DNA from: a virus
Reading direction: 5' to 3' (one strand)
DNA: 31,166 nucleotides
Virus record (IMG/VR): IMGVR_UViG_3300006854_000042
Coordinates: 1 to 31,166 of that record
The notes under the pieces are model-generated. The model had not been told where the DNA came from. It was given only the letters and a program-made list of their open reading frames with translations, and did not search any database. A program made the translations under genes and the position numbers. Of the stretch, positions 1,095 through 28,262 are shown one piece after another. Every line of letters begins with the position of its first letter. Position 1 is the first letter of the stretch.

Positions 1095-1261
1095 CACTTA
1101 CCTCGCTTTCCAAACATCGATTCCATCGGGCCCTTCTTGGACTTGCCGACCTTGTACGGCAGCCCCTTGGCGACGTGCCCGCCGGACAGCTCGTGGAGCG
1201 CCTTCGGGTTGTGGACCGCCAGGTAGCCCTGTTGCGCTCGCGATACGATCTTCCCAGGCAT
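1094..1261 (-). CDS. Small basic phage protein (55 aa)
   Basis: This short gene is easily missed because a longer open frame overlaps it. It starts with MPGKIVSRAQQGYLAVHNPK and ends with a Lys/Gly-rich tail. The start resembles a widespread class of tiny phage proteins beginning with a Lys/Ser-Ala-Gln motif (MPAKSKAQ-like, DUF3008-like); that similarity is by eye only. The ATG overlaps the upstream TGA as TGATG, and its own TGA overlaps the next ATG the same way, which strongly supports translation. It is basic and probably soluble. Function unknown. Confidence 0.7.
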   Translation of the reverse strand: MPGKIVSRAQQGYLAVHNPKALHELSGGHVAKGLPYKVGKSKKGPMESMFGKRGK

Positions 1262-3117
1262 CAGCGCCCCTCCGTCTGTGCCGCCCGCGCGGCGGTGAGT
1301 AGCGGCAGCTCCCCGAGCACCAGCGGCGCCGCTGCCTGAGCGGCCAGCGCCGGCCCGTAGAGCAGCCGCGCCTGGATGGCCGGAAGGTTCTGCAACGCGA
1401 GACCACCAGCGCCCGCAGCCAGCGCGCCGCCGAAACCGGTGTGCCCGTGCCCGAGAGCGTGCGCCGCTGCCTCGAGCACGCCGAGCGACCCGAGCCCGCT
1501 GCCCGTGCGCTCGATGAGTCCGCCGTGCCGCTGCGGGAGCAGCCGAAAGCTGATGTCGCCGCGCTTGCGCAGCAGCTCGGGCTTGTCGAACTCCGCGCCC
1601 ACGTCGGGGTGCCGCTCGGCGAATCGCTCCATGTCGGTCCGCTGCCCGCCGGCCGTGACGGTGTTCTGCCCGCGCCGCATGATGCGGTTCTTGACGACGT
1701 CCTCGGCCGTGCGCGAGTCACCCGACGCCAGCTCGCCCTCGACGTCCTCGAGCGCGTTGGGCGTCCGCTGCCGCTCGGGGATGCCGAGCAGCCGCCGGTC
1801 GAGCTGGTTGTTCTGCGCCTGCTGCGCGTACTGCGCGTTGGCGTCGGCGAACGGCCCCTCGTTGACCAGGGTCCGCACGTCGTCCGCCGCCCGACGGATC
1901 GGGGAGAACTTCTCGTCGGTGGACTGCCCCGTGCGCGCGTACCGGTCCAGCGACCGCTTGAGGCCGTTCAGGTCGCCCTCGCTGAGGAAGTAGTTGTCGA
2001 CCTCGGGGTTGAAGCCCTGGCCCTGACGGCTGCGGATGGCGGCCAGCTCGTCGCGGAGCGCCTGCCGAGCAACCGGCGAGATGCCGATGTCGTTCGCGGC
2101 GTCCTCGAGGCTCGTGACGACGTTGGTCACGTCGTGCAGCTCCCCGGCCGCGGGGCTCTCGTAGATGCGCCCCATGCCGCGGCCGATGGCGCCCTTGATG
2201 GCCCGGTCCTCGGTGTTGAGCATGTTCAGGCCCGTGCGCGCCGACTCCGACGCCTGCTGGCCGATGTTCTCGTCGGTGGCCGCGAGCGCATCCGGACCGC
2301 GCGAGGCGACCATCTCGTCGTAGGGTCGGCCGCGACCGGGCGACGTGAGGCCGACGTTCCCGCCGCGCTCCTCGATGAACTGCCGCGCCTGCCCACCTCG
2401 GCTCTGCCGAATGCCGCGGCCGGCTTCGGACATCAGGCCGGTGCCGACGCCGAGGCCCGCGCCAAGCGCCAGGCCCGTCTCGCCGCTCTCCTTCGCCGCC
2501 TGCAGCGCTTCCTCGGGGCTCGCGCCCTCGCTGAACGCCTGTAGGCCGCCCATCGCGCTCGACGCGAGGCCCGACGTGCCGGCCGCCTGGAAGACGCGCC
2601 CGGGGATGCTCTCGAGCATCTGCGCGCCGCCCGGGATCGCGGTCAGCCCGCGGCCGATGGCGTTGCTGGCCGCCTGCGTGAGCAGGTTCGCCGGTCCCTC
2701 GAGCGCGTAGACCGGCGCCGTCGCGAGGCCCTCGGTCGTGGGCGCCTCTTGGCGGAAGCGCTCCATGCCCTCGACGGCCTGCCCGGTGGTCGGCACGCCC
2801 AGCGCGCGCCCGGCCCGCAGCAGCCCGCCGTAGGCCCCGAGCGTGAACCGGTCGAGGCCGCTGTTCAGGCTGCTTGAGACCGCCTCGCCGAGGGACGGGT
2901 CGGGCACCTGTGCCGGGTCGAGCTCGGCGCGAACCTGGTCAATCCGACCGGTATTGTTGAATCGCCGGTGCGCGGGGCTCGGCTTGAACTTCCCCGTGTC
3001 GAGGAACGACTCGCGGAGCGCGGTCTCCTCGGGCGTCTCGGGGTTCTCGGAGGCGAACTGCTCCGGGTCGAACGAGTCGCCGCCGGCCAGGAACGCGTGG
3101 GGGTCGAAATCAGCCAC
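1261..3117 (-). CDS. Large virion protein, probable ejection (internal virion) protein (618 aa)
   Basis: The protein starts at a GTG (3117) inside the last codons of the upstream gene, with GGAGG about seven bases ahead; longer upstream extension only reads through that gene. The N-terminus is acidic (DFDPHAFLAGGDSFDPEQF). Residues about 190-220 form a Gly/Ala-rich segment that could insert in membrane. The middle is a charged helical region, and the C-terminal 90 residues are Ala/Leu/Gly-rich hydrophobic helices. Size, helix content and position after two coiled-coil proteins match the gp14-16/gp7-16-20 ejection sets of podoviruses. There is no clear sequence match, and no lytic transglycosylase motif was seen. 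Confidence 0.65.
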   Translation of the reverse strand: MADFDPHAFLAGGDSFDPEQFASENPETPEETALRESFLDTGKFKPSPAHRRFNNTGRIDQVRAELDPAQVPDPSLGEAVSSSLNSGLDRFTLGAYGGLLRAGRALGVPTTGQAVEGMERFRQEAPTTEGLATAPVYALEGPANLLTQAASNAIGRGLTAIPGGAQMLESIPGRVFQAAGTSGLASSAMGGLQAFSEGASPEEALQAAKESGETGLALGAGLGVGTGLMSEAGRGIRQSRGGQARQFIEERGGNVGLTSPGRGRPYDEMVASRGPDALAATDENIGQQASESARTGLNMLNTEDRAIKGAIGRGMGRIYESPAAGELHDVTNVVTSLEDAANDIGISPVARQALRDELAAIRSRQGQGFNPEVDNYFLSEGDLNGLKRSLDRYARTGQSTDEKFSPIRRAADDVRTLVNEGPFADANAQYAQQAQNNQLDRRLLGIPERQRTPNALEDVEGELASGDSRTAEDVVKNRIMRRGQNTVTAGGQRTDMERFAERHPDVGAEFDKPELLRKRGDISFRLLPQRHGGLIERTGSGLGSLGVLEAAAHALGHGHTGFGGALAAGAGGLALQNLPAIQARLLYGPALAAQAAAPLVLGELPLLTAARAAQTEGR

Positions 3118-5758: not shown

Positions 5759-7198
5759 TCAGCTCTCCGCGTTCACGTAGGTTTCGCGTGCCTCGGCGAG
5801 CACGAACTCAGCCGAGCCGAGCCAGGTCAGCTCGTACTGTCGCTGCCGGTACATCCCGAGCCCCCATCTGTCGATGGTCGGTGCGTAGTCGCCGGCGCCG
5901 AGCGAAAAGGACATGGGCGTGTTGAAGGCTCCCAAGTCATCACGGTAGGCAATTTCCACGGCCGGCACTGCCGACGTGGTATTGACCGCCGTGGCGCCGC
6001 GCCGCATGCGAAGCCGCAGCAACGTGGACAGCTTCCGAACGCCCGCGCCCTGGTCGATGAAGCCGGTCCGGCTCACCGCCTTGACCCCCTGCCCCATCTC
6101 GGTGGTCGCGTCCATCGACAGCTCGCCGACGGTTCCGTCCGACAGGCCGACGAGGTGGAGGTTCTTCTCGGGCCAGTGCACGTACGATTGCCCGATCCAG
6201 GGGATCCAGTCGTTGCCGTCCCACGACCGCCACTCGCCCCACTTCTGGCTGATGCGCTCGTAGTAGATGGCGCGGCCCTCGGTCGGGAAGACCCAAAGCA
6301 GGATGTCGTACGCCCCGATCCGAATGCGCGACCCCCAGCAGTCGGTCACCGTCGTGAGCTGCTCGAGCGACCGCGACATCAGCGGCAGTGAGAGCACGGT
6401 GAGCTGCCGGCCGTCCGACTGCACGAACCGCCGCTTCTCATCGAGCCACGCGTATGCCGTGTCGATGCTGATGACCGAGTAGGGCGCCGCGCACCCGGTC
6501 GTGAGCGCCGCGGTCGTCGTCGAGAACGACGTGCTCGGGTCGGGGACGTACACCTGCATCGTCGACGAGCCCCACACCGCGACCTCGTTGCTGTTCACGT
6601 AGAGCGCGATCGTGGGGTCGGGCGCCGCCTCAGCCTCGGCGAAGTCGAGCCCGGTGTTCCACGTCTCGTGATTCCCCACGCCCGGCGGGGTCCAGAAGAT
6701 TTCGCCCGAGATGTCGTTCGCGTTCCCGACGAACCGAGTCGCCGCGTACCCGATGTGCGTCAGGTTCGGCGGCGAGCCACCGAGGCGCGTCGACAGCCCC
6801 GTCCCCTCCCACTTCTGCGGGGCCCCGCCGCCGGCCACGACGACCCGTTGCGAGTCGAACGTGAACACCGGCCGCCCGGTGCCGTCGAGCTGCGTGACCG
6901 CCGTGCCGCTCGACAGCGCGATGACGTTGCCCGGCCCGAGCCACGCCCACAGCTTCCGCACGCCCGTGGTCGCGTTCTGCGTGACGACGATGAGGTAGTT
7001 GCGCCACGGGAACACGCCGACCACCGGGTTGCCGTCGGTCGACGCGCCCGCCCAGTCGGCCCACGGCTTCACGAGCGGCCGCACCTGCACAGTGCCGTCC
7101 GCCGCCCGCAGCAGGTTCACGAACGTCGGCGACGCCCCGGCAAGCTCCTCGAGCCCGCTGGCCTGCCCGGCGCCGAAATCGATGACACTCTCCGCCAT
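5759..7198 (-). CDS. P22 gp10-like tail stabilisation protein (479 aa)
   Basis: This is a beta-rich protein of the length expected for the podovirus tail accessory factor (P22 gp10 is about 470 aa), which plugs the portal/adaptor after packaging. Visible support: repeated WxW/GxW beta-blade patterns, a central ERISQKWGEWRSWDGNDW segment, and a C-terminal segment (about residues 435-475) reading GDYAPTIDRWGLGMYRQRQY followed by LTWLGSAEFVLAEA. That resembles the conserved C-terminus of these proteins (W-x-x-LG, R-Q-R, an SDP-like strand). Translation probably starts at the ATG behind a GGAG site at the edge of the divergent gap. Function follows from family resemblance and position. Confidence 0.65.
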   Translation of the reverse strand: MAESVIDFGAGQASGLEELAGASPTFVNLLRAADGTVQVRPLVKPWADWAGASTDGNPVVGVFPWRNYLIVVTQNATTGVRKLWAWLGPGNVIALSSGTAVTQLDGTGRPVFTFDSQRVVVAGGGAPQKWEGTGLSTRLGGSPPNLTHIGYAATRFVGNANDISGEIFWTPPGVGNHETWNTGLDFAEAEAAPDPTIALYVNSNEVAVWGSSTMQVYVPDPSTSFSTTTAALTTGCAAPYSVISIDTAYAWLDEKRRFVQSDGRQLTVLSLPLMSRSLEQLTTVTDCWGSRIRIGAYDILLWVFPTEGRAIYYERISQKWGEWRSWDGNDWIPWIGQSYVHWPEKNLHLVGLSDGTVGELSMDATTEMGQGVKAVSRTGFIDQGAGVRKLSTLLRLRMRRGATAVNTTSAVPAVEIAYRDDLGAFNTPMSFSLGAGDYAPTIDRWGLGMYRQRQYELTWLGSAEFVLAEARETYVNAES

Positions 7199-7302
7199 CA
7201 GGCCGAACTCCGAACATCTTGACCGCTATTCCTGCACCGCGTCGAACCTGAACGCCCGCCCAGCTTGCGGGTGGCGGCGGCGGGCGCGACATTGGTCCCA
7301 CC
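7199..7302. promoter_or_regulatory. Divergent intergenic region with TTGACCGCTATT motif
   Basis: This 104-bp gap separates the minus-strand gp10-like gene from the plus-strand lipoprotein gene, so it must hold a start signal for at least the latter. At 7219-7230 it carries TTGACCGCTATT (followed by CC). This differs at one position from TTGACCGGTATT at 25613-25624 and closely matches the copy at 25958-25969. The motif could be a -35-type promoter element or an operator; no convincing -10 hexamer is seen 17 bases downstream. Confidence 0.45.
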
Positions 7303-7680
7303 ATGAAGACGGCCCTTGCAGTGGCGCTGTTGGCGGTGGTCGGGTGCGCGGGACGGGAGGGCGCAGGCGGGCCGGGTGACACGACCCCGTGGGTCTTCGA
7401 GCTCTGCTCCACCGGAGACGTGTGCTGCGTCGGGCAGCTCGATCTCGGCGAGACCGATCCGCCGGACGCCGACTCCATCAAGGGCTTCAGCGGGCACTGG
7501 TCGTGCGACTCGTGGACCGGATCCGTTTCCGGGAGGACGCAGCGCTTCGCCAGCGTCGCGCACATCGACCTGACCGGAGACAAGGAGGTCGCGATCGACG
7601 GCATCTTCTCCGACAGGGCCTTCTACGGGAGAGCGGCCGTTGACCACTCCGTGACCGTAGCGACGGCGTTCCGGCAGTAG
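7303..7680 (+). CDS. Putative secreted lipoprotein, moron-like (125 aa)
   Basis: This is the only plus-strand gene within the late structural block. Residues 1-15 (MKTALAVALLAVVGC) form a textbook lipoprotein signal: basic start, hydrophobic core and lipobox V-V-G-C, with Cys15 as the lipidation site followed by Ala. The mature part is about 110 residues with four more cysteines (35, 41, 42, 68), which could form disulfides outside the cytoplasm. It shows no transmembrane helix and no recognised domain. No strong Shine-Dalgarno site is visible. The opposite strand and the shared motif upstream suggest separate expression, as in lysogenic-conversion or superinfection-exclusion genes. An outer spanin is unlikely because the gene is not near any lysis gene and is not proline-rich. 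Confidence 0.72.
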   Translation: MKTALAVALLAVVGCAGREGAGGPGDTTPWVFELCSTGDVCCVGQLDLGETDPPDADSIKGFSGHWSCDSWTGSVSGRTQRFASVAHIDLTGDKEVAIDGIFSDRAFYGRAAVDHSVTVATAFRQ

Positions 7681-7694
7681 CGTCATGTGACGCT
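7679..7694. terminator. Perfect inverted repeat between convergent genes
   Basis: AGCGTCA and TGACGCT form a perfect 7-bp inverted repeat with two central bases. It lies across the stop codons of the convergent lipoprotein (+) and tailspike (-) genes. No T-tract follows on either strand, so a rho-independent terminator is only one option; it may be a protein-binding palindrome or act with Rho. Confidence 0.4.
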
Positions 7695-9221
7695 GTCCGC
7701 GCGGTAGAGCTCGCGATAGACGCCGCCCACGTTCTTGTCGGTCGCGAACCCGACGGTGATCGTGTGGCCGGCGGTGGCGGGGATGGCGGCGGTGGTCCTG
7801 TAGGCCGCGTTCAGGTTCCAGGTGACCGCGCCGCCACTGGCGTTGATGAACACCAGGACGAACTCGCGCTCGAACCCGGCATCGGCGGGCGTAGGGGCAT
7901 TGACCGTGACGGCGCCCGCGCCTCCCGAAGTGGCCGCCAGGTAGATGAACTTCGCCCCGTCTCCGATGTCCGGCGTCTGCGACGTGCCGACCGCGAACGA
8001 CGTAACGCTGTGATCGCGGTTGTTGTTCTTCTGAAAGACGCCCGGGTCAGTGGCCGTCAGGACGGAGATCGTGCCCTGAGTTGCGAGGCCCTGGTTGTTG
8101 TTGATGAAGTAGTTCGTGCCGGTCAGCGTCGCCTTGAGCCGAAGGACCGCGCCGATCTGGTTGTTGCTGATGAACACGTTCGACGCGGTACCGTCGAAGT
8201 CGAGAGCATTCCCGCCCGAAGGGAGCCGGTTGTTGGTGAAGAAGAAGTACTGGCTCGTACCGCTCGTGTTCACCACCACGCCCTTTTGCATGTCGCAGTT
8301 GGTGACTCGTATCCCGGAGACGCTGGCGCCGGTGATAGACAGGGCGGTCGTATAGGTCCCGCTGAACGTGACGCCGTCGACGCCGACGGCATTGATCAGC
8401 GTGTCCGTGCATCCGACGAGGGCGATTCCGAACCCCGTCGTGCTCGACGAGTGGGTCAGGTTCAGATGCTCCATGCAGAGCGTCGAGCACGAGGTGAACG
8501 TGAAGCAGTTCGCCGTCGCGTGCGTCAGCTTGATCTGCGACGACCGCTTGCCGGCCCCGAGGAGGCGAAGCCCGTTCGCGCTGGTCGCCGTCAGGACAGA
8601 GCTGACCAGGTACGAGGTCGAGGTTGGCGGGAAGTAGACCGTGCCGCCTCCGAGGAAGACGACGCGGTTGATGGCGTTCTGAATTGCGGTCGTGTCGTCC
8701 GCGATCCCGTTGCCGATGGCGCCGTAGTCCTTGACCGAGATCCAGATCTCACTGAACTTCGCCTTGATGGTCCGCGCCGAGGCCGCCGTCGACTCCTGGT
8801 ACTTCGCATCGACGCCGCCCGTGCTCGTGTTCAGCGACGTCAACACCGCGTGCAGCGTCGTGTCCCCGCCCGCGACCGTCGAGCCCGTGTCCGGGTCGAC
8901 GCCCGTGAAGCCGTCGTTGCGGACCGCCGTCGACGGCGCGCTCGCCGTCACCACGTCGAAGTCGTCGACCGTCGAGTAGACGCCCGTGGACGTCACCGAC
9001 TGCACGACCAGCCGCGCCGGGCCCGCCAGGTACACTTCGGCCTTCCCCGCTGCGTCGAGGGCGATCGGCTGCGTCGCCTGCACCTCGGCGTCGGCGTCCG
9101 AGTAGACGATCGTCTGCGAGGTCGTGCCCGGCGAGTAGAACCACGCCAGCCCGCTCGCGTTCGCCGACCCGTCTGACTTCCGCGCGCCCGACGCCAGGTA
9201 CTGCACCAGTGCCGCGAGCAT
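7683..9221 (-). CDS. Tailspike with pectate-lyase-type beta-helix (512 aa)
   Basis: Residues 1-90 resemble a virion-attachment domain (SDGSANASGLAWFYSPGTTS). At about 163-200 the protein has VKDYGAIGNGIADDTTAI, then a helix and GGGTVYFPP, the start of a Pectate_lyase_3 right-handed beta-helix. About 200 residues of short strands with Asn ladders (FFFTNNRLP, FISNNQIG, YFINNNQG) follow, then a C-terminal beta domain for trimerisation or binding. Such spikes recognise and often degrade host capsule or O-antigen. The ATG at 9221 is preferred because of TGATG overlap and a GGGGGTGG site; an in-frame GTG at 9230 is possible. Catalytic residues cannot be assigned. Confidence 0.8.
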   Translation of the reverse strand: MLAALVQYLASGARKSDGSANASGLAWFYSPGTTSQTIVYSDADAEVQATQPIALDAAGKAEVYLAGPARLVVQSVTSTGVYSTVDDFDVVTASAPSTAVRNDGFTGVDPDTGSTVAGGDTTLHAVLTSLNTSTGGVDAKYQESTAASARTIKAKFSEIWISVKDYGAIGNGIADDTTAIQNAINRVVFLGGGTVYFPPTSTSYLVSSVLTATSANGLRLLGAGKRSSQIKLTHATANCFTFTSCSTLCMEHLNLTHSSSTTGFGIALVGCTDTLINAVGVDGVTFSGTYTTALSITGASVSGIRVTNCDMQKGVVVNTSGTSQYFFFTNNRLPSGGNALDFDGTASNVFISNNQIGAVLRLKATLTGTNYFINNNQGLATQGTISVLTATDPGVFQKNNNRDHSVTSFAVGTSQTPDIGDGAKFIYLAATSGGAGAVTVNAPTPADAGFEREFVLVFINASGGAVTWNLNAAYRTTAAIPATAGHTITVGFATDKNVGGVYRELYRADSVT

Positions 9222-9916
9222 CAGCGCCACCCCCGCATGTAGTCGTAGTCCGGCACGAACCGCGCCGGTCCCTTCTCGCCGTCGTCGAGGAGCGCCCTGG
9301 TCTTGTGGAACTCGAACGCATCCGTCATTCGTGACACCTTCTCGGGCAGGCCGCTCGACTCGGCCACGTCGACAGCGACCATGTACGCGAGCGCCTTGAG
9401 GTACCGCGACGGGAAGTCACCGGTCACGCCGCCCGTGTCCATGTCGCGCAGCAGGCGCACCTGGGGGTACGTGATGCTCGTCCAGTTCGAGTCTGGGACC
9501 TGGTAGAGCGTGAACGTCACCGTCCCGGCAGACGTGCCCGACTCGACGTACATCTGCGTCGGCTGGCCCTGGCTCGACTTGTTCGTGAGCAGCATGTAGT
9601 CGGTCATCGACCGCTTGGCCACCGGCAGATCCACGCCGTTGCCGTCGGACACGAACGCGCCGTCGAGGATGTCGATGGTGTCGGCGGGCGCCGTGTACGC
9701 CGCGGTCCCCGCGCTGAGCGCCTGCGTGTAGCGGGTGCGCGTGCGCAGCTGGACGCCCTCGTTCTGCAGCGCCTTGATGCCGACGTTGAGCAGCGTGCGG
9801 CCGAACGCGAGCTGCACCGCCCCGGCCTGGTACTCCTCGCCGCGGACGAGCTGGTACGCCAGCGACACGATCTGGTCCGCCGTGAGGTCGTAGGTGTAGT
9901 TCGCCGAGATGGTCAT
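9221..9916 (-). CDS. Head-tail adaptor / tail tubular-like protein (231 aa)
   Basis: The fold pattern is helix-rich N-terminus (DLTADQIVSLAYQLVRG), beta-rich middle, then FPSRYLKALAYMVAVDVAES and a charged helical C-terminus. This resembles podovirus head-to-tail adaptor proteins (P22 gp4 or T7 gp11 class), which form a dodecameric ring under the portal. Those proteins carry a similar P-x-x-[FY]-x-x-A-L-x-x-x-[LV]-A motif near the C-terminus. Size fits (about 165-240 aa). It overlaps neighbours by ATGA and TGATG and lies directly beside the tailspike. Family assignment is by eye. Confidence 0.6.
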   Translation of the reverse strand: MTISANYTYDLTADQIVSLAYQLVRGEEYQAGAVQLAFGRTLLNVGIKALQNEGVQLRTRTRYTQALSAGTAAYTAPADTIDILDGAFVSDGNGVDLPVAKRSMTDYMLLTNKSSQGQPTQMYVESGTSAGTVTFTLYQVPDSNWTSITYPQVRLLRDMDTGGVTGDFPSRYLKALAYMVAVDVAESSGLPEKVSRMTDAFEFHKTRALLDDGEKGPARFVPDYDYMRGWR

Positions 9917-16468: not shown

Positions 16469-17375
16469 CGGCTGCTTTCGCCTTCATTGCGCGCTTGCCG
16501 ATGGCGTTCCACCACATCTTTCGGCCGGCGTCCTCGGACAGGTTCGGGTGGTACTTGTTCGCCCACTGGTCCGCGATGGCCTGCTGGTCCTCGTCGAGCT
16601 TCATCTCGGACTCGTGCTCGCCGCCGCCGGCGCCGTTCTTCCCCGACGGCAGCTCGAAGCGTTTCACGTTGCCGTTGGTGCGCCCGTTCGTTGGCATGCC
16701 GCCGAGCTGCAGCACCTGCGCAGCCCACGCGCACGCCGCGCGGAACGTCTCGTAGCTGCGCGGGTGTCCCTCGCCGACCATCTTGGCGATGCGGGCGTCG
16801 GCGACGGCGCGTGCTTCCGCGTCCGATCGCAACCACCTGAACTCGGACGCGAGGTCGGCGGCCATCGCCTGCGTTCCCGGGTCCATCTGGCTTTGCGACC
16901 ACGACTCGCGCTCCTTGGCCAGCTTGCGGTCGGCGCGCAGCTCGTCCATGTCCTCCAGCGTCTGGTGGTAGGCGTCAAGCTCGCGCTTCGCCGTCGCCGG
17001 GTCCTTCGACGCCGACGCCATCTCGAGGTGCCGGTCGCGCTTGTCCCGCAGTTCCTTCAGCCGCTGCTCGTACGGGTCCGTCGCGGGCTGCTGCCGCTGT
17101 TGCTGCGCCTGGACCTGCCCGCGCAGCTCGGCCAGCTGGACCTCGAGCGCCTGGCGTGCCTGCCGATCGCGCGCAGCCTCGGCGCGCAGCTCGTCCTGCT
17201 CCCTCTTGCGCGTGGCCATCCACTCGGCGCGGCGGGCCGCCCGGGACTGACGAGCTTCGGCGGCCGGCGACCCCGGCTCGGCGTCAGGCGACTCGGTTTC
17301 GGTCTCCGGCGCTTCTGGCTCCTCGGCTTCCGGCTCGGTCTCCTGCGATTCGGGTGCGGTGTCTTCCGTTGCCAT
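16464..17375 (-). CDS. Scaffolding-like protein (303 aa)
   Basis: The N-terminal 35 residues are extremely acidic (Glu/Pro/Thr-rich). A long charged coiled coil spans about residues 40-165 (Gln/Arg/Glu/Ala-rich, including QVQAQQQRQQ), and a compact basic C-terminus follows (WWNAIGKRAMKAKAAG). This acidic head, coiled-coil body and basic helical tail is the signature of internal scaffolding proteins, whose C-terminus docks to the capsid protein. Its place between portal and capsid genes agrees. Translation starts at the ATG behind a GAGGAGAAGGTGA site and overlaps the end of the GroES-like gene by 92 bases. Confidence 0.7.
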   Translation of the reverse strand: MATEDTAPESQETEPEAEEPEAPETETESPDAEPGSPAAEARQSRAARRAEWMATRKREQDELRAEAARDRQARQALEVQLAELRGQVQAQQQRQQPATDPYEQRLKELRDKRDRHLEMASASKDPATAKRELDAYHQTLEDMDELRADRKLAKERESWSQSQMDPGTQAMAADLASEFRWLRSDAEARAVADARIAKMVGEGHPRSYETFRAACAWAAQVLQLGGMPTNGRTNGNVKRFELPSGKNGAGGGEHESEMKLDEDQQAIADQWANKYHPNLSEDAGRKMWWNAIGKRAMKAKAAG

Positions 17376-17847
17376 TGCTCACCTTCTCCTCGTAGTAGTG
17401 CTCGCCTTCCTTGTCGTCGTAGGCGAGCGTGTGCGTGGTCCCGACCCGCTCCAAGGCGTCGACAGAGCCAAGTAGCTCGTCCACCTTGAGCTGGAGAATC
17501 TTCTTCCCAGTGTTCTCCGGGTCCCGGGCGAACTCCTCTTCCCATCCCGCGAACTGCCCGAACCACACGATGTCGCCGATCTCGATCAGGTGGTCCTTCA
17601 TCACGTCGAGCGCCTTTAGGCCCGCCGACACGAGCACGCCGCGGGCATCGGGCATCGCGGCCCCAACGGTCTCTCGGATGTTTCCCATGCCGTCCGTCGT
17701 CTTCTCGGTCCAGACCTGCGGGATCACGAGCCCGCCCGCCGTCAGCTTCTCGTTGGGGATGCGGAACACGAGCACCACCTTGTTTGCTGGCAGGTACGGC
17801 AGCTCGGGGATTCCGTACAGCTTGCGACGCTCGACGAGCTTGCTCAT
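17284..17847 (-). CDS. GroES-like co-chaperonin (187 aa)
   Basis: Residues about 22-133 match the Cpn10/GroES plan. NKVVLVFRIPNEKLTAGGLVIP holds the first strand and the mobile loop (T-A-G-G-L-V-I-P corresponds to S-A-G-G-I-V-L-T). An insertion at 45-67 precedes GVLVSAG. IGDIVWFGQFAGWEEEF corresponds to GDIVIFNDGYGVKSE, and ILQLKVDELLGSV corresponds to the final strand ending in DILAIV. Such proteins cap GroEL; phage examples such as T4 gp31 help fold the capsid protein. The location between portal and scaffold supports that role. The last 37 residues are polar and lie in the overlap with the scaffold gene; they are outside the core fold. No phage GroEL is visible. Confidence 0.8.
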   Translation of the reverse strand: MSKLVERRKLYGIPELPYLPANKVVLVFRIPNEKLTAGGLVIPQVWTEKTTDGMGNIRETVGAAMPDARGVLVSAGLKALDVMKDHLIEIGDIVWFGQFAGWEEEFARDPENTGKKILQLKVDELLGSVDALERVGTTHTLAYDDKEGEHYYEEKVSNGNGRHRTRIAGDRAGSRGARSAGDRNRVA

Positions 17848-18062: not shown

Positions 18063-20347
18063 GTGACCTGCCCGTTCTCGGCGCCGTTGGTGGGCGCCGG
18101 TCCGCCGTTGGGTACTCGCTTGGGCATCGGCACCGCCGGGCCCTGGGGTTGCGACTGGGGCTTCGCCGGCGGTGGATTACCGTTCGGGTTGCCCGCCATT
18201 CCCGGCGGCGCCAGGCCCATCGCCATCTTCTGCAGCATCTGGTCGAGCGCGGCGACGAGGTCAGGCCGGTCCATCGCCTTGAACAGCCCCTTCTGCGCCG
18301 CCGCGACGATGAGCGGGTCGGCCGCCGTGAGCGGGTTCGCCATCACCGCCTGCAGGGCAGTCTGCGCGTCGGCGATCCGCTGCGGCTGGCTGGCCATGCG
18401 GGGGTCGGCGGTCACGGTGATGTCCGTGTCCTGGAGGTAGTCCATCCGCGCGACGTGGTGCTCCTCGACGATGCCGGGCTTTGCCGGGTCGGTGACGTAG
18501 AAGTACTCGGCGTCACCGAGGTAGACGCTGTTGAGCCGCGCCAGGCTCCGCGCCTCGGCGGTGCGGCTGCGGGTGTAGCGCTTCGACAGGATGCCGATCG
18601 CGGCGAGCGCCTGGGAGATTCGGATCTGAGTGGTCGTCGCGGTCTCGTTCGAGCCGCCCACCTCGCCCGAGAGAATCTCCCCGGCGCCCGACAGCTCCTC
18701 GGCCTCTTCCTTCTGGTCCTTGATGACCTGGCCCATCGCCGGGTTCGGGCCCGGGAACGTGATCGGCAAGATGGCGTTCTTCATGTCCTGCGGCATGAGG
18801 TCCACCTCGACCCCCTGGCCCGGCTTCACCTTGAGGTCGCCGCGGGACAGCTTCGCGTGCTTCGAGTACAGGAACGTGTAGATGTTCGCGAGCGTGCCGG
18901 CGTCGACGAGCTGGGCCGCGATGGTGTCGGCCACCATGTTGTGCCCCTCGAGCAGGAAGCCGATGCCCCACCCCATGATGCCCTCGGGGTTCGGGATGCA
19001 CCGGTAGTGGGTGAAGAAGTTGATCGGCACCATCTTCGGCTGCGCCGGGTCGGGCGGCGGCTGGGGCGGCGCGGGTGGAATACCGGTCAACGTGCCCGTA
19101 GTTCCCCCCGGCGCGGGCGGCGCCGTCATGGTCGTCTCGCCGGGGGCCGGCGGCGTGGTCATCGTCGTGTCGCCCTGCATCGGCAGCGGCGTGGTGGTCA
19201 TCTCCCCCGGCACCGGCGGCGCCGTCACGGCCTGCTGCTGGCCGTAGTAGGCCTGCATGTCCATCCGCCACTTCATCACCGCGGCCTGGTACATGGCGTC
19301 GTTCGCCGCCTTCTCGCGGTTGTAGCGGGCGCGGTCGACGGGGTCCTCGTCCTCCCTCAGGAACACGCCGAGCACCATCTTGGTCTGCTTGTCGACGGCG
19401 GTGATGACCGGCCGCTGGCGGTCCTGGCCTTCGAGCTTGCACCAGTGGTGCTGTTCGAGGATTTCCCGCTGCCCCGTCGAGAGCGGCCGGCGGATGCCCT
19501 GCGCTTCGTCGATGACGTCCCTCATCGGGTGGTCGTTGTCGCGCGAGCTGCCGCGGGTCGTCTGGTCGACCTCCGACTCGGACTCCTTGTTCGCGTCCTC
19601 GTCGGCGTAGAGCTTGGCGACCGCCGCGGCGTCGTAGTAGCCGGTCGCGGCCATGTCTTCGAGCTCGTGCCGGGCGTACCGCAGGATGCGGGTGATGCAC
19701 GAGACGTTCGCCATGTGGGGGTCGTCGTCGTGCTCGGTATACGGCAGCACGATGTCCTCGGTGCGGCACGACTCGTGACACGGCCGGTTCTTCGCGGCGT
19801 TCCAGTACATGATCGAGAAGGCCGACCCGTACAGCAGCCACTGCATGATGAGGTTGTCGTGGTTCGGCGCGTACTCGGGGATTTGGTGCTCGACCTGCCA
19901 GTTGAGGTGCTTGGCCACCCGAATCGCCCGGTCGAGGTCGTCCTGATCGGTCGGCTTGACCCCGAAGAACTCCCCGCTCGACGGCAGCTGCTGGTCGTAG
20001 ATGCGCGCGTGCATCCTCAGCACCGCGGTCATGATGATCGGGTAGTGGACCCGCGCGTAGCCGAAGCCGTCGTCGGGCGCCGGCGGCAGCTGCCCGAGCG
20101 CGAGCCGCATGATCGACGCCCGGCGCTCGCGGTACTTCGCCATCCCCTGCCAGTGGTCGTCGAACCGCTTGCACACGTCCTCGCCGTACTTGGCCAGCGC
20201 CTCGGGGGACAGCGTCGGCACGAGGTTCACCGTCTCGGGCGCGGACCCGGCGGTCGTCTCGTCGAGGGACGGCGGTGGTGGCTCGGCCATGTCCTCGACG
20301 GGGTTGTCGGTCGGCTCGGGCTCGTCGGTCGTCGGCGGGTACGTCAT
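18059..20347 (-). CDS. Portal protein with internal Pro/Thr repeat (762 aa)
   Basis: The size matches the large podovirus portals (P22 gp1 is 725 aa). The N-terminal helical wing includes DDHWQGMAKYRERRASIMRL; a region of conserved GFGYARVHYPIIMTAVLRMH follows. The stem/clip region includes IPNPEGIMGWGIGFLLEGHN, and a helical crown runs to the C-terminus with a Pro/Gln/Gly-rich tail. The portal is the dodecameric ring for DNA entry and the terminase docking site. Residues 376-419 hold four 11-residue Pro/Thr repeats (separate entry). The ATG at 20347 overlaps the upstream TGA (ATGA), so the longer frame further upstream is not used. Confidence 0.85.
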   Translation of the reverse strand: MTYPPTTDEPEPTDNPVEDMAEPPPPSLDETTAGSAPETVNLVPTLSPEALAKYGEDVCKRFDDHWQGMAKYRERRASIMRLALGQLPPAPDDGFGYARVHYPIIMTAVLRMHARIYDQQLPSSGEFFGVKPTDQDDLDRAIRVAKHLNWQVEHQIPEYAPNHDNLIMQWLLYGSAFSIMYWNAAKNRPCHESCRTEDIVLPYTEHDDDPHMANVSCITRILRYARHELEDMAATGYYDAAAVAKLYADEDANKESESEVDQTTRGSSRDNDHPMRDVIDEAQGIRRPLSTGQREILEQHHWCKLEGQDRQRPVITAVDKQTKMVLGVFLREDEDPVDRARYNREKAANDAMYQAAVMKWRMDMQAYYGQQQAVTAPPVPGEMTTTPLPMQGDTTMTTPPAPGETTMTAPPAPGGTTGTLTGIPPAPPQPPPDPAQPKMVPINFFTHYRCIPNPEGIMGWGIGFLLEGHNMVADTIAAQLVDAGTLANIYTFLYSKHAKLSRGDLKVKPGQGVEVDLMPQDMKNAILPITFPGPNPAMGQVIKDQKEEAEELSGAGEILSGEVGGSNETATTTQIRISQALAAIGILSKRYTRSRTAEARSLARLNSVYLGDAEYFYVTDPAKPGIVEEHHVARMDYLQDTDITVTADPRMASQPQRIADAQTALQAVMANPLTAADPLIVAAAQKGLFKAMDRPDLVAALDQMLQKMAMGLAPPGMAGNPNGNPPPAKPQSQPQGPAVPMPKRVPNGGPAPTNGAENGQVT
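19091..19222 (-). repeat. Four 33-bp tandem repeats inside the portal gene
   Basis: In the portal frame the segment reads as four exact-length 11-residue units: APPVPGEMTTT, PLPMQGDTTMT, TPPAPGETTMT, APPAPGGTTGT. The DNA units are diverged 33-mers. Directly after it (19079-19090, minus strand) lies TTGACCGGTATT, the motif found in the regulatory regions. The repeat forms a flexible extended linker in the protein. Confidence 0.75.
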
Positions 20348-25587: not shown

Positions 25588-25599
25588 CCCGCGTCGGGT

Positions 25600-25624
25600 A
25601 ATTGCGGTCGGCTTGACCGGTATT
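25600..25624 (+). repeat. AATTGCGGTC-N4-TGACCGGTATT copy 1
   Basis: AATTGCGGTC (25600-25609), four variable bases, then TGACCGGTATT (25614-25624). The first half (GGTC) and second half (GACC) form an inverted repeat around the spacer. A second copy lies at 25945-25969. Likely a protein-binding site. Confidence 0.55.
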
Positions 25625-25669
25625 GGCGGAGTGCGGCAGAGGGCCCGAGGGGGTCATTTTGTGGGCGGG

Positions 25670-25793
25670 GATGTACACCCACACATCACCCACCCCCGGT
25701 CGCTGGGGGGATACCCCTGACTACACGGGGGTACACGCGACGACCAGTGTGTGTACGTACGGTGAGCGTATCGTAGAGCACATGGTGTACATC
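25670..25793. promoter_or_regulatory. Cluster of GTGTAC-type elements, including a 10-bp inverted repeat
   Basis: GATGTACACC (25670-25679) and its exact reverse complement GGTGTACATC (25784-25793) flank further GGGTACACG (25729-25737) and GTGTACGTAC (25751-25760) elements. The core TGTACA is itself a palindrome. The spacing is irregular. Operator cluster or origin iterons are possible readings. Confidence 0.4.
25693..25731. other. Alternating C and G runs
   Basis: CCCCC, GGGGGG, CCCC and GGGGG follow each other with short spacers. Each G run can pair with either neighbouring C run, giving mutually exclusive hairpins. This may act as an attenuator-like or DNA structural element; chance in GC-rich DNA is not excluded. 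Confidence 0.3.
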
Positions 25794-25944
25794 TCGCGCG
25801 CCACCTAACACCGCGTTCCTGCTGTGCATTGTGGGCGGTCCGCGCTCTCCAGTTGACGTAATCGCCCTTATCGGCACATTCAGTGATTACGGGCACTTGC
25901 GCGCGATTGGCGGAGGTTGGTGTACCGTTCAGTGCCTCGAGGCG

Positions 25945-25969
25945 AATTGCGGTCAAGCTGACCGGTATT
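25945..25969 (+). repeat. AATTGCGGTC-N4-TGACCGGTATT copy 2
   Basis: Same layout as the copy at 25600: AATTGCGGTC, four bases (AAGC), TGACCGGTATT, then CCC. The central GGTCAAGCTGACC contains GGTCA/TGACC inverted arms. The two copies lie 345 bp apart. Confidence 0.55.
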
Positions 25970-26030
25970 CCCGGCCGCCCGGTCGACACACTGCTCACCA
26001 AAAGCCGGACCGTAGCGCCCGGGTTGTTGC

Positions 26031-26060
26031 GGAGCGCGCGGCGAGGTAGCTCCGCGCTCC
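26031..26060. repeat. 8-bp inverted repeat
   Basis: GGAGCGCG and CGCGCTCC are separated by 14 bases and can form a stable stem-loop. No T-tract follows, so it is not a standard terminator. A pyrimidine-rich tract follows on the plus strand. Confidence 0.4.
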
Positions 26061-26212
26061 CTGCCCCATCCCCATCCGCCCCCATCCGACCCGCCCTGCC
26101 CTGCCCAGTCCCGCCGCAGTCCTGTCGTCGGGCTTCCCTGCGCCGTTCCGGCTCCGGGTAGCGCCCTCGGCTCGCCCTACGTCGGCAGGTTAACTCCCGA
26201 AGTGACTACGGG

Positions 26213-26227
26213 GCTCGTCTGACGAGC
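26213..26227. repeat. 7-bp palindrome
   Basis: GCTCGTC-T-GACGAGC is a perfect inverted repeat with one central base, a shape typical for a dimeric repressor or recombinase site. Confidence 0.4.
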
Positions 26228-26292
26228 GCGCGAACCATGGGTAGCACGTGACGGTTTGCGGCACAAGGAGGTGGCTTACGGGAGTTGCGGTT

Positions 26293-26316
26293 GTGGTACT
26301 GACCGTGGTAACGACC
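26293..26316 (+). repeat. Tandem GTGGTACTGACC / GTGGTAACGACC
   Basis: Two directly adjacent 12-mers that match the divergent-region motif GTGGTATTGACC at eleven and ten positions respectively. They lie about 170 bp upstream of the HTH gene, so they may control it. Confidence 0.5.
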
Positions 26317-26483
26317 AGTGTGCGTGGGTTGCGGCTGTGACATAAGCCTGCGGCGTCAGCGGGCGGGCGCGGTGAGCAAGTCGGCAACGACGGGCCCGTG
26401 TCGCAGCCTGTTCCGGGCCTGGATGTGGGGCAACCCCTCCACGCTCGGCACCAGGGCAGGATCGGCCGCAACCCACGTGAACC

Positions 26484-26708
26484 ATGCCCTGGTCAGGTAG
26501 ACCCGCCGCTCGCAAGCCGCCACCGGGGCCTGCTGGGTGGTTCTCGGTGCGGGACATCGCGCGGTCGCTGCGCGTGCACGAGGACACGATTCAGGCGGCC
26601 ATCCGCGCGGGGCAGCTGGTGGCGTCGAAGGTGGGGCGGGCGTACCGGGTGTCGCCGGCGGCGCTCGACGCCTACTTGGCTTCGCGGTCGTCGTTGCCGG
26701 TCGATTGA
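26484..26708 (+). CDS. Excisionase-type helix-turn-helix DNA-binding protein (74 aa)
   Basis: Residues 20-68 match the HTH_17/MerR-like excisionase domain: FSVRDIARSLRVHEDTIQAA (first and recognition helices), then IRAGQLVASKVGRAYRVSP (wing) and AALDAYLAS (C-terminal helix). The pattern corresponds to L-T-V-E-E-V-A-x-x-L-G-V-S. Such proteins act as directionality factors or small transcription regulators. The ATG at 26484 gives a Pro-rich leader but no ribosome site; a GTG at 26547 preceded by GGGTGG gives 53 aa and may be the true start. The gene's end overlaps the facing minus-strand gene by 37 bp. It lies downstream of the repeat-rich region. Confidence 0.75.
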   Translation: MPWSGRPAARKPPPGPAGWFSVRDIARSLRVHEDTIQAAIRAGQLVASKVGRAYRVSPAALDAYLASRSSLPVD

Positions 26709-26872
26709 GCCGCCCACTCCTCCCTGAGGATGCAGGGTTCTTCGGCAGGCGTGAGCAAGCCGCCGCACTTCGGGCACCAGCCGATGCTCCCGTTAGGACC
26801 GCGCACGTGCCTGCACTCCCGCCGCGCCGCCTCTTGGTTGTACCTGCGCAGCTCCTCGACGTCTGGGTTCAT
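26672..26872 (-). CDS. Small zinc-binding-like protein (66 aa)
   Basis: Last gene of the leftward accessory block. ATG at 26872 in ATGA overlap with the upstream gene. Contains RRECRHVRGPNGSIGWCPKC and GGLLTPAEEPC, a C-x-H/C-x-x-C set that probably binds zinc. The N-terminus is helical. It ends inside the facing HTH gene. Function unknown. Confidence 0.6.
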   Translation of the reverse strand: MNPDVEELRRYNQEAARRECRHVRGPNGSIGWCPKCGGLLTPAEEPCILREEWAAQSTGNDDREAK

Positions 26873-27054
26873 TGCGCCAGCCTCCTGTTGACGAACACGA
26901 CCACGGCTCCAGCCGCGTAGCCTGCAGCCCACGCGAGAGCAGGGCATACGACAGCAGGCACAGACCCGGGCAGCAATCTCACGCAGGCCAACCCTGCCGC
27001 AGCGCCCGCTACCCCGGCAATCACCTTCAGCACAATCGCCCTGCGCAAGCTCAC
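26869..27054 (-). CDS. Two-helix membrane protein (61 aa)
   Basis: Starts with GTG (GTGA overlap with the upstream gene). Two hydrophobic segments, about residues 8-25 (VLKVIAGVAGAAAGLACV) and 33-54 (PAVVCPALAWAAGYAAGAVV), are separated by a short Pro/Gly loop. The N-terminus (SLRR) and C-terminus (NRRLAQ) are basic, suggesting both in the cytoplasm. The size and two-helix layout fit class II holins, but no endolysin is nearby. A membrane anchor or immunity protein is equally possible. Confidence 0.6.
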   Translation of the reverse strand: MSLRRAIVLKVIAGVAGAAAGLACVRLLPGSVPAVVCPALAWAAGYAAGAVVVFVNRRLAQ

Positions 27055-27290
27055 GACGCCAGCGCTCCAATCGGCATGCCCAGCACTCTCTCACGGTCCG
27101 TCGCGCCTCGCACCACCTGACCCACCGGCACGCGTGTACAGCGGCTGGCGTAGCGCCCTAGGCCCACTACGATTCGCACGGTGGCTACGTCCTCGACCAC
27201 GAGCAGCACCTTCGCCACCCTGGGCGGTCGCTTCCCTGGGTCGTGCCTCACGATTACGTGGTCGCCTACGTGGAGATCCATGGCTGTCAT
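27051..27290 (-). CDS. Small beta-rich protein (79 aa)
   Basis: AAGGAAGG lies about six bases before the ATG at 27290, one of the clearest ribosome sites of the block. The sequence MDLHVGDHVIVRHDPGKRPP, then VAKVLLVVEDVATVRIVVGL suggests a small SH3-like or KOW-like beta barrel, which could bind nucleic acid or protein. It is the first gene after a 400-bp gap, so it may head its own transcript. Function unknown. Confidence 0.6.
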   Translation of the reverse strand: MTAMDLHVGDHVIVRHDPGKRPPRVAKVLLVVEDVATVRIVVGLGRYASRCTRVPVGQVVRGATDRERVLGMPIGALAS

Positions 27291-27693
27291 TGGGTACCTT
27301 CCTTTCGCTTCCTACACCGCTACAACCCCCGTGCTCTCCATCTGAGCGCGGGTCCGGTCCCGGGGTCGCTGCCCACCCTGGTGGTCGGTTGCTGCTGTCC
27401 TGGGTGCCGGCCTGGCGCCTGCTAGCCCGAGGGGGTGCACGAGCGGCGACGCGTGGTCGTAGCCCCTGCACTCACTCGCGCCTCTGAGCGCTTACGGTGT
27501 TCCGGCTGATCGGGCCATGCCCCCACGGGCAATCGTCCAGCTTCCGGGGCTAACGGTGGTCCCCGGCGGCCGTGCGTTCCTGCACTGGACTTCCCGGCGT
27601 GGTCGTCACGCTTCGGCGGCGATTCCAGGGCCACAGGCCAGGTGCACATACGGGCCACCCGTGCCTCCCCTGTCGTTCGTCCGCTACGCAGAA
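27291..27693 (-). other. 403-bp stretch without a convincing gene
   Basis: A 91-codon frame (27422-27697) starts in perfect ATGA overlap with the upstream gene, but its composition is Arg/Pro/Gly/Ser-rich with no protein-like pattern. By my count about two thirds of its third codon positions are G or C, below the clear genes here. The stretch may be a decayed gene or a leader for the next gene. I see no terminator or consensus promoter. Confidence 0.4.
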
Positions 27694-27876
27694 TCATCGC
27701 GGCTTGATTGCCTTCCGCATTGCCCGGGCGAGCACGTTCCAGCCGCGCCCAACATCGGCATCGCTCTGCCGGTCTCGTAGACGTCCGGCGAGCTCCATCG
27801 CAGTTTCGGCGCGCAACCCAACTCGGACCAGCTTGCGACGGCCGTCGTCGTTCACGCGCTCGACGACCCAGGTCAT
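27694..27876 (-). CDS. Small basic helical protein (60 aa)
   Basis: The ATG at 27876 overlaps the upstream TGA as ATGA. The sequence starts with WVVERVNDDGRRKLVRVGLR, then a helix (AETAMELAGRLRD), and ends basic (ARAMRKAIKPR). No cysteines or membrane segment. Function unknown. The longer frame upstream is read-through of the DUF3307 gene. Confidence 0.55.
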   Translation of the reverse strand: MTWVVERVNDDGRRKLVRVGLRAETAMELAGRLRDRQSDADVGRGWNVLARAMRKAIKPR

Positions 27877-28262
27877 CGCGGCAACCACCTCAGCGCCGCG
27901 CCGTTGATCAGCACGTGCATGACGTTGTCCGCGATGATGAGCAGCCACACCGCGAGCCACGGCGGCCGACCCGCCGGGTAGCCGGTGCCGCTACACAGCG
28001 CCCATGGTGGATTACCGGGCCCGAGGAAATTCTTTGCCCAGACCACGAAACGCGCGAGCCGCCAGCGGTCGATCATGAAGTGTGTGCCGACGATGACCGC
28101 GAGCGCAGTCACCGACGGACGCAGGAACAGGAACGGCAGCGCGTAGGTGAACACATGGGCCAGCGCCGCGACAGAGCGCTTGGTCTTCTCGTTCGCCATC
28201 CAGTCGCTTTGAAGCACGTAGTCGCCCACGGCGTGAGCTACGAGTTGGTCGGCGGTGATCAC
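27873..28262 (-). CDS. DUF3307-family membrane protein (129 aa)
   Basis: The start is a GTG at 28262 (GTGA overlap). The N-terminus ITADQLVAHAVGDYVLQSDW carries the H-x3-D-x3-Q-x-D-W-M pattern that opens DUF3307 proteins. Then follow LAHVFTYALPFLFL (membrane helix), VTALAVIVGTHFMIDRWRLA, and a C-terminal helix ending in VMHVLINGAALRWL. The family is found in phages and bacteria, is integral membrane, and has no settled function. Loss of a middle segment is not seen; the length is a little short for the family. Its cytoplasmic partners are unknown. Confidence 0.75.
   Translation of the reverse strand: MITADQLVAHAVGDYVLQSDWMANEKTKRSVAALAHVFTYALPFLFLRPSVTALAVIVGTHFMIDRWRLARFVVWAKNFLGPGNPPWALCSGTGYPAGRPPWLAVWLLIIADNVMHVLINGAALRWLPR

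Follow-up and report, generated by a model that had tools for sequence, protein, structure and literature searches.

A fixed slot beside the tailspike gene in a clade of podoviruses holds mutually unrelated lipoproteins, candidate superinfection exclusion morons

We analysed a 31,166-base stretch of soil phage DNA with 67.7% G+C, an IMG/VR virus record referred to here in its full length as the window, in which a short open reading frame on the plus strand (7303-7680) separates two virion genes of the minus strand. On one side lies the gene for a head-closure (DNA stabilization) protein of the Hc3 or P22 gp10-like kind (5759-7198; PHROG 578 'head closure Hc3', E 4e-20). On the other lies a tailspike gene (7683-9221), recognized by tailspike PHROGs and pectate-lyase fold matches, whose product has a conserved N-terminal part and a beta-helix (pectate lyase-like) domain with a variable C-terminal part. 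An SU10-type adaptor gene (9221-9916, minus strand; PF24175, E 3e-9) adjoins the tailspike gene, and the capsid, GroES-like, portal and terminase genes follow further up on the same strand, the GroES-like co-chaperonin (17284-17847; PF00166, phrog_3188) standing among the head genes. The window also encodes a DUF3307/phrog_6676 membrane protein (27873-28262; PHROGs E 2e-47). Next to it, a stretch of about 2.2 kb (25590-27870) contains few coding-like ORFs, two strong palindromes and the gene for a small HTH_17 protein (26547-26708; PF12728, E 1e-10), and is likely a regulatory switch or origin region. Rfam and tRNA searches of the window gave no match.

The terminase relatives point to HMO-2011-like podoviruses of Alphaproteobacteria, and the capsid has relatives in phages that infect Caulobacter, Roseobacter, Alcaligenes and cyanobacteria, two-membrane hosts throughout. 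We read the phage as a P22/HMO-2011-like podovirus from a group that is probably temperate. A tyrosine integrase gene occurs in the contigs of two relatives, L003 and L006; the window contig, which may be a fragment, has none, and GTDB genomes yielded no prophage with a related Hc3 gene.

The original prediction had placed at 7303-7680 a lipoprotein gene with a lipobox and extra cysteines, set antisense between two virion genes and provided with its own intergenic region, and each of these points held up. The gap between the tailspike and Hc3 genes measures 484 bp, and 7303-7680 is the sole frame within it of coding-like composition. Its G+C by codon position (0.62/0.55/0.89) follows the pattern of the phage's genes, a pattern that the competing frames of the gap lack, and its codon-usage score is +28 while every other frame there scores negative. 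Per codon this comes to 0.24, which is lower than in the late genes but on a par with the phage's other genes on the plus strand (24-25.6 kb), a level that would suit a cargo or early gene. The ATG-initiated frame encodes 125 aa, beginning with a predicted type II signal peptide of 14 aa (MKTALAVALLAVVG; 7303-7344, plus strand) that carries Lys at position 2. Cys15 (codon 7345-7347) follows in a V-V-G-C lipobox as the predicted lipid-bearing residue. The sequence pattern thus comprises the n-region K/R, hydrophobic stretch and lipobox with Cys of bacterial lipoproteins, and the mature part of 111 aa has four more cysteines after the lipobox Cys. In E. coli, Asp at position +2 retains a lipoprotein in the inner membrane; since residue +2 is Ala here, that retention rule does not apply. 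Such signals are rare in these phages: a strict lipobox scan of ORFs of at least 40 aa in the window phage and its relatives, roughly 2,000 ORFs in all, returned about 12, and within the window 7303-7680 alone.

The protein itself resembles nothing in the databases. It matched no Pfam and no PHROG family at E≤1, and there was no usable match in Pfam, PHROGs, NCBIfam, PDB sequences, phage and plasmid records, IMG/VR or GTDB contigs. AlphaFold models were poor, both for the protein alone and together with two of the lipoproteins that occupy the same slot in relatives (mean pLDDT 42 and 47).

We collected relatives from IMG/VR with the Hc3 and tailspike proteins as queries, and recovered one more, L035, in a later search with the N-terminal part of the tailspike alone. 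In a carrier clade of five phages (the window phage, L003, L004, L005 and L035), the slot between the tailspike and Hc3 genes holds an antisense small lipoprotein ORF in every member. The predicted signal peptides, each followed by the lipobox Cys, are MKRVLLIAAVLLGG in L003 (49.6-kb contig, 123 aa), MRYIILALFLVG in L004 (28.8-kb contig; 76 aa, short and proline-rich), MRTLVVAALLLLG in L005 (9.7-kb contig, L005:4622-4882; 86 aa with 8 mature Cys) and MRDINWSPIALGALLWLLLVGLVG in L035 (24.3-kb contig, 119 aa); the last was called by eye, the strict lipobox pattern missing it on account of an Asp in the n-region. In each of the five, 1-2 nt separate the stop codons of the lipoprotein and tailspike genes (2 nt in the window), GC3 of the five genes is coding-like at 0.79-0.89, and mature cysteines come in even numbers throughout (4, 2, 4, 8 and 2). 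Four more distant relatives (L002, L006, L010 and L017) have an empty site, the tailspike gene abutting or overlapping the Hc3 gene. In one of them (L010:3889-7409) two tandem tailspike genes precede Hc3, without a lipoprotein gene. In the Hc3 protein tree a branch supported at 100/99 separates the five carriers from the rest. Most simply, the slot would have been filled a single time in the carrier group and have stayed occupied ever since. The L003 phage contig also has, opposite to its lytic genes, a frame for a 412-aa product with about five TM segments and no Pfam match (L018:1557-2795, minus strand), possibly another moron.

What fills the slot differs from phage to phage. Comparing the mature lipoproteins of the five carriers by BLAST and shuffling, we found no pair similar beyond shuffled sequence; the closest, those of the window and L035, which share a C-G-...-G-W-C pattern and may be distantly related, reach a BLAST E of 0.12 and a shuffle p of 0.09. 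The closest carriers, L004 and L005, are 76% identical in Hc3, 69% in the adaptor and 78% in the N-part of the tailspike, against only 41% in its C-part, and their lipoproteins are not alignable, although fast evolution could simply account for both divergences. We did not accept the L005 protein as a member of PF24052 ('Phage lipoprotein'), the match being sub-threshold (E 9e-4; score 19.7 against a cut-off of 27).

The leader of the lipoprotein gene, by contrast with its mature product, is conserved. Between the divergent Hc3 and lipoprotein starts runs an intergenic region (7199-7302) with an element, ACCTGAACGCCCGCCCAGCTTGCG (7246-7269, plus strand), that is common to L005, L035 and, more weakly, L004, and in all four phages sits 54-57 nt before the lipoprotein start. 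The window copy agrees with that of L005 at 18 of 23 bases (none of 3,000 random start upstreams did as well), with that of L035 also at 18 of 23 (p 0.0007) and with that of L004 at 14 of 23 (p 0.075). Immediately before the start, L004 and L035 agree at 29 of 40 positions (about 1e-4 for the 25 start-proximal bases), and upstream elements are conserved in four of the five carriers altogether. The element probably serves the lipoprotein gene, because its distance from the lipoprotein start is kept and it is far from the Hc3 start, with a palindrome in between. Overlapping its end, we mark a candidate promoter, TTGCGG-17-GACATT (7265-7293, plus strand; 9 nt to the ATG), on the strength of conserved spacing, its match to the consensus being weak. 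Four carriers have the pattern TTGCGG-17/18-[GC]ACA[CT]T at 6-9 nt ahead of the ATG, again with weak hexamers, which suggests a near-leaderless transcript. A sigma-70 promoter scan at the lipoprotein gene found no promoter, and a search for the terminator consensus found none.

The original prediction had also mentioned a motif otherwise seen in control regions; this proved real and stronger than stated. Between the divergent Hc3 and lipoprotein start codons, positions 7206-7230 form an imperfect, operator-like palindrome. It belongs to a set of seven copies, scattered over the window, of a 25-bp palindrome of the type AATWSCGGTC-N5-GACCGSWATT. Two near-perfect copies lie in an intergenic control region (25600-25624 and 25945-25969), and four lie inside genes: two in the portal gene (18176-18200 and 19079-19103), one in the tailspike gene (8682-8706) and one in gene 1261-3117 (2931-2955). 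With a matrix built from two copies that were then left out of the score test, the scores of the remaining five sites run from 18 to 25, against 8.2 for the best other site in the window. No site at 18 or more arose in 200 Markov simulations and 300 codon-shuffles; these put the set beyond chance, and we rejected the idea that the portal copy at 19079 is a chance match. The tailspike copy may be partly protein-driven: it overlaps a conserved protein motif, ADDTTAI, and L005 has a similar DNA stretch. In IMG/VR the exact palindrome matched only an unrelated tandem-repeat contig, and the other carriers are without this palindrome sequence.

Repressor-type sites repeated through genes and control regions are known as stoperators from cluster A mycobacteriophages (PMC6550527). 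The seven palindromes of the window recur in the same way, in genes and control regions beyond chance, and resemble a system of the stoperator type, here in a podovirus; the mycobacteriophage sites are asymmetric and mostly one-way, whereas those of the window are 25-bp palindromes and putative operators. The copy at 7206-7230 points to control of the lipoprotein promoter region by a regulatory circuit of the phage itself.

Taken together, the empty sites in four relatives, the antisense orientation in a co-directional operon, a probable control region of the gene's own and the integrases in two relatives strongly support the view, already put forward in the original prediction, that 7303-7680 is a moron, its slot being occupied in five phages and empty in four at an otherwise intact junction. 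That prediction had further proposed a search for homologues next to other phages' tail genes. Four relatives do have lipoproteins in the slot, but these are unrelated to the 7303-7680 product, of which we found no homologue. Nor did homologues that are plainly host genes, which it had counted against itself, come to light, there being no homologue at all in the libraries searched.

As to function, receptor-blocking exclusion is our best guess, because the slot is kept, its lipoproteins are mutually unrelated and stand beside a variable tailspike, and the arrangement resembles that of Llp in T5 and BF23. The T5 Llp gene adjoins the receptor-binding gene pb5 (PMC9586334), and the Llp of BF23 has the same function with no homology to that of T5 (PMC4728585). 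There, as here, a gene for a small disulphide-bonded lipoprotein stands beside a receptor-binding gene, the two stops being 2 nt apart in the window, and related phages carry non-homologous versions. The differences are that T5 and BF23 are siphoviruses with the protein receptors FhuA and BtuB, whereas our phage is a podovirus with a beta-helical tailspike in a group with at least five mutually unrelated lipoproteins; the 7303-7680 protein has no Llp homologue among the phage and PDB sequences searched. Cor, the exclusion lipoprotein of T1, phi80, N15, HK022 and mEp167, offers a second likeness, its loci lying just downstream of tail-fibre genes (PMC13164509) as this one lies beside a tailspike gene. 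The Cor profile (PHROG 1119) did not match the 7303-7680 protein, and the L003 lipoprotein touches it solely over the signal peptide (E 0.05). Most likely the 7303-7680 product works like Llp and Cor but is no member of the Llp, Cor or Bor families by sequence.

We therefore consider it fairly probable that 7303-7680 is a moron and that its lipoprotein blocks either the receptor or the route of entry of the phage bearing the adjacent tailspike. An insertable, independently placed lipoprotein gene stands tail-to-tail with the gene for the receptor-recognising tailspike, and as cargo it would be transcribed independently. Its product would be exported and lipidated at Cys15; lacking Asp at +2, it would probably be tethered to the outer membrane of a host with two membranes. 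Expressed in the lysogen or early in infection, its disulphide-bonded mature domain would bind a host component, either the surface receptor or part of the entry machinery, on which phages sharing the tailspike depend; superinfection would be blocked and progeny would not be lost on cells already infected. Across the clade, position, orientation and (in four of five) the upstream element would have been kept while the lipoprotein was exchanged or diverged alongside the receptor-recognising end of the tailspike. Several points weigh against this account: the carriers number just five, the 7303-7680 protein matches none of the known exclusion proteins in sequence, and the tailspike fold is polysaccharide-lyase-like, while the receptors that Llp and Cor block are proteins. 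As the tailspike seems to bind polysaccharide, what the lipoprotein blocks may be an entry step or a second receptor that is a protein.

The main rival to exclusion is a lysogenic-conversion lipoprotein of the lambda Bor type, which would change the envelope when expressed from the prophage (conferring resistance of the stress, predation or serum type) and have no anti-phage role. Lambda bor has a similar layout, an antisense lipoprotein gene in the late operon that is expressed from the prophage, and some relatives of our phage carry integrases. Bor is, however, conserved in sequence and not known to be paired with a tailspike, and the protein studied here is paired with one and has no Pfam match, Bor included. 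There is no clear reason why a conversion factor should lie 1-2 nt from the tailspike gene in every carrier, or why its replacement from one close relative to another should track the tailspike C-part, and we regard this explanation as unlikely.

Exclusion could also act after adsorption, with DNA entry blocked at the envelope in the manner of Ltp or SieA and not at the receptor. SieA is a membrane protein that blocks DNA entry, not a lipoprotein; Ltp comes from a Gram-positive host, has a different domain and is not known to be encoded beside a receptor-binding gene. A polysaccharide-binding tailspike would make a separate entry step a plausible target, and there are precedents: the sieA gene of P22 is a prophage-expressed exclusion gene in a P22-like short-tailed phage (PMC10883804), whereas the window gene encodes a lipoprotein and is a single antisense gene, and Ltp of TP-J34, whose target is the tape measure protein, is a surface-exposed prophage lipoprotein for superinfection exclusion (PMC3952083). 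Variation with the tailspike and not with the ejection proteins would favour the receptor side, the comparison covering Hc3, adaptor, tailspike and lipoprotein, and we judge a purely post-adsorption block to be quite improbable.

An outer-membrane spanin (Rz1-like) acting in lysis might be proposed from the strict scan, in which the slot gene is the only plausible lipobox gene of each carrier (the window, L003, L004 and L005), and from the short, proline-rich L004 protein. Against it, the slot genes run on the strand opposite to the late genes, with virion genes as neighbours and no inner-membrane spanin partner overlapping or adjoining; they are missing from relatives at an intact junction and encode up to 8 Cys and mature parts of 111 residues, and the lysis genes of the L004 contig, for an M15 peptidase and a candidate holin with two TM segments, are clustered some 9.6 kb off on the late strand. 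A spanin is accordingly very unlikely. That 7303-7680 is a chance antisense frame in a GC-rich genome, where such frames are common (the window has 200 ORFs of at least 60 aa) and where its per-codon score is under those of the late genes, is practically excluded by the slot comparison, in which one slot holds five distinct lipobox genes whose stops fall at the same position, together with coding-like GC3, a conserved leader and empty sites in outgroups, while early genes of the window phage score equally low.

Returning to the exclusion moron as our preferred reading, we put forward as a tentative extension the possibility that tailspike and lipoprotein form an exchangeable, cognate specificity cassette in temperate soil podoviruses, and that the gene may join a stoperator-like immunity circuit. 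Exclusion proteins often evolve too fast for homology search. If the cassette is real, each lipoprotein would be the exclusion factor matched to the receptor of its neighbouring tailspike, and a set of unrelated exclusion domains could be located from position alone. The fixed slot and orientation, the conserved leader and the lipobox allow candidates to be found by position and possible pairs of tailspike and exclusion factor to be read off. The logic of T5 and BF23, known from siphoviruses of coliphage type, is thereby carried over to short-tailed phages that are uncultured and have beta-helical spikes. Should the cognate pairing hold, these pairs would show whether exclusion by lipoproteins can work on phages whose first contact is with polysaccharide.
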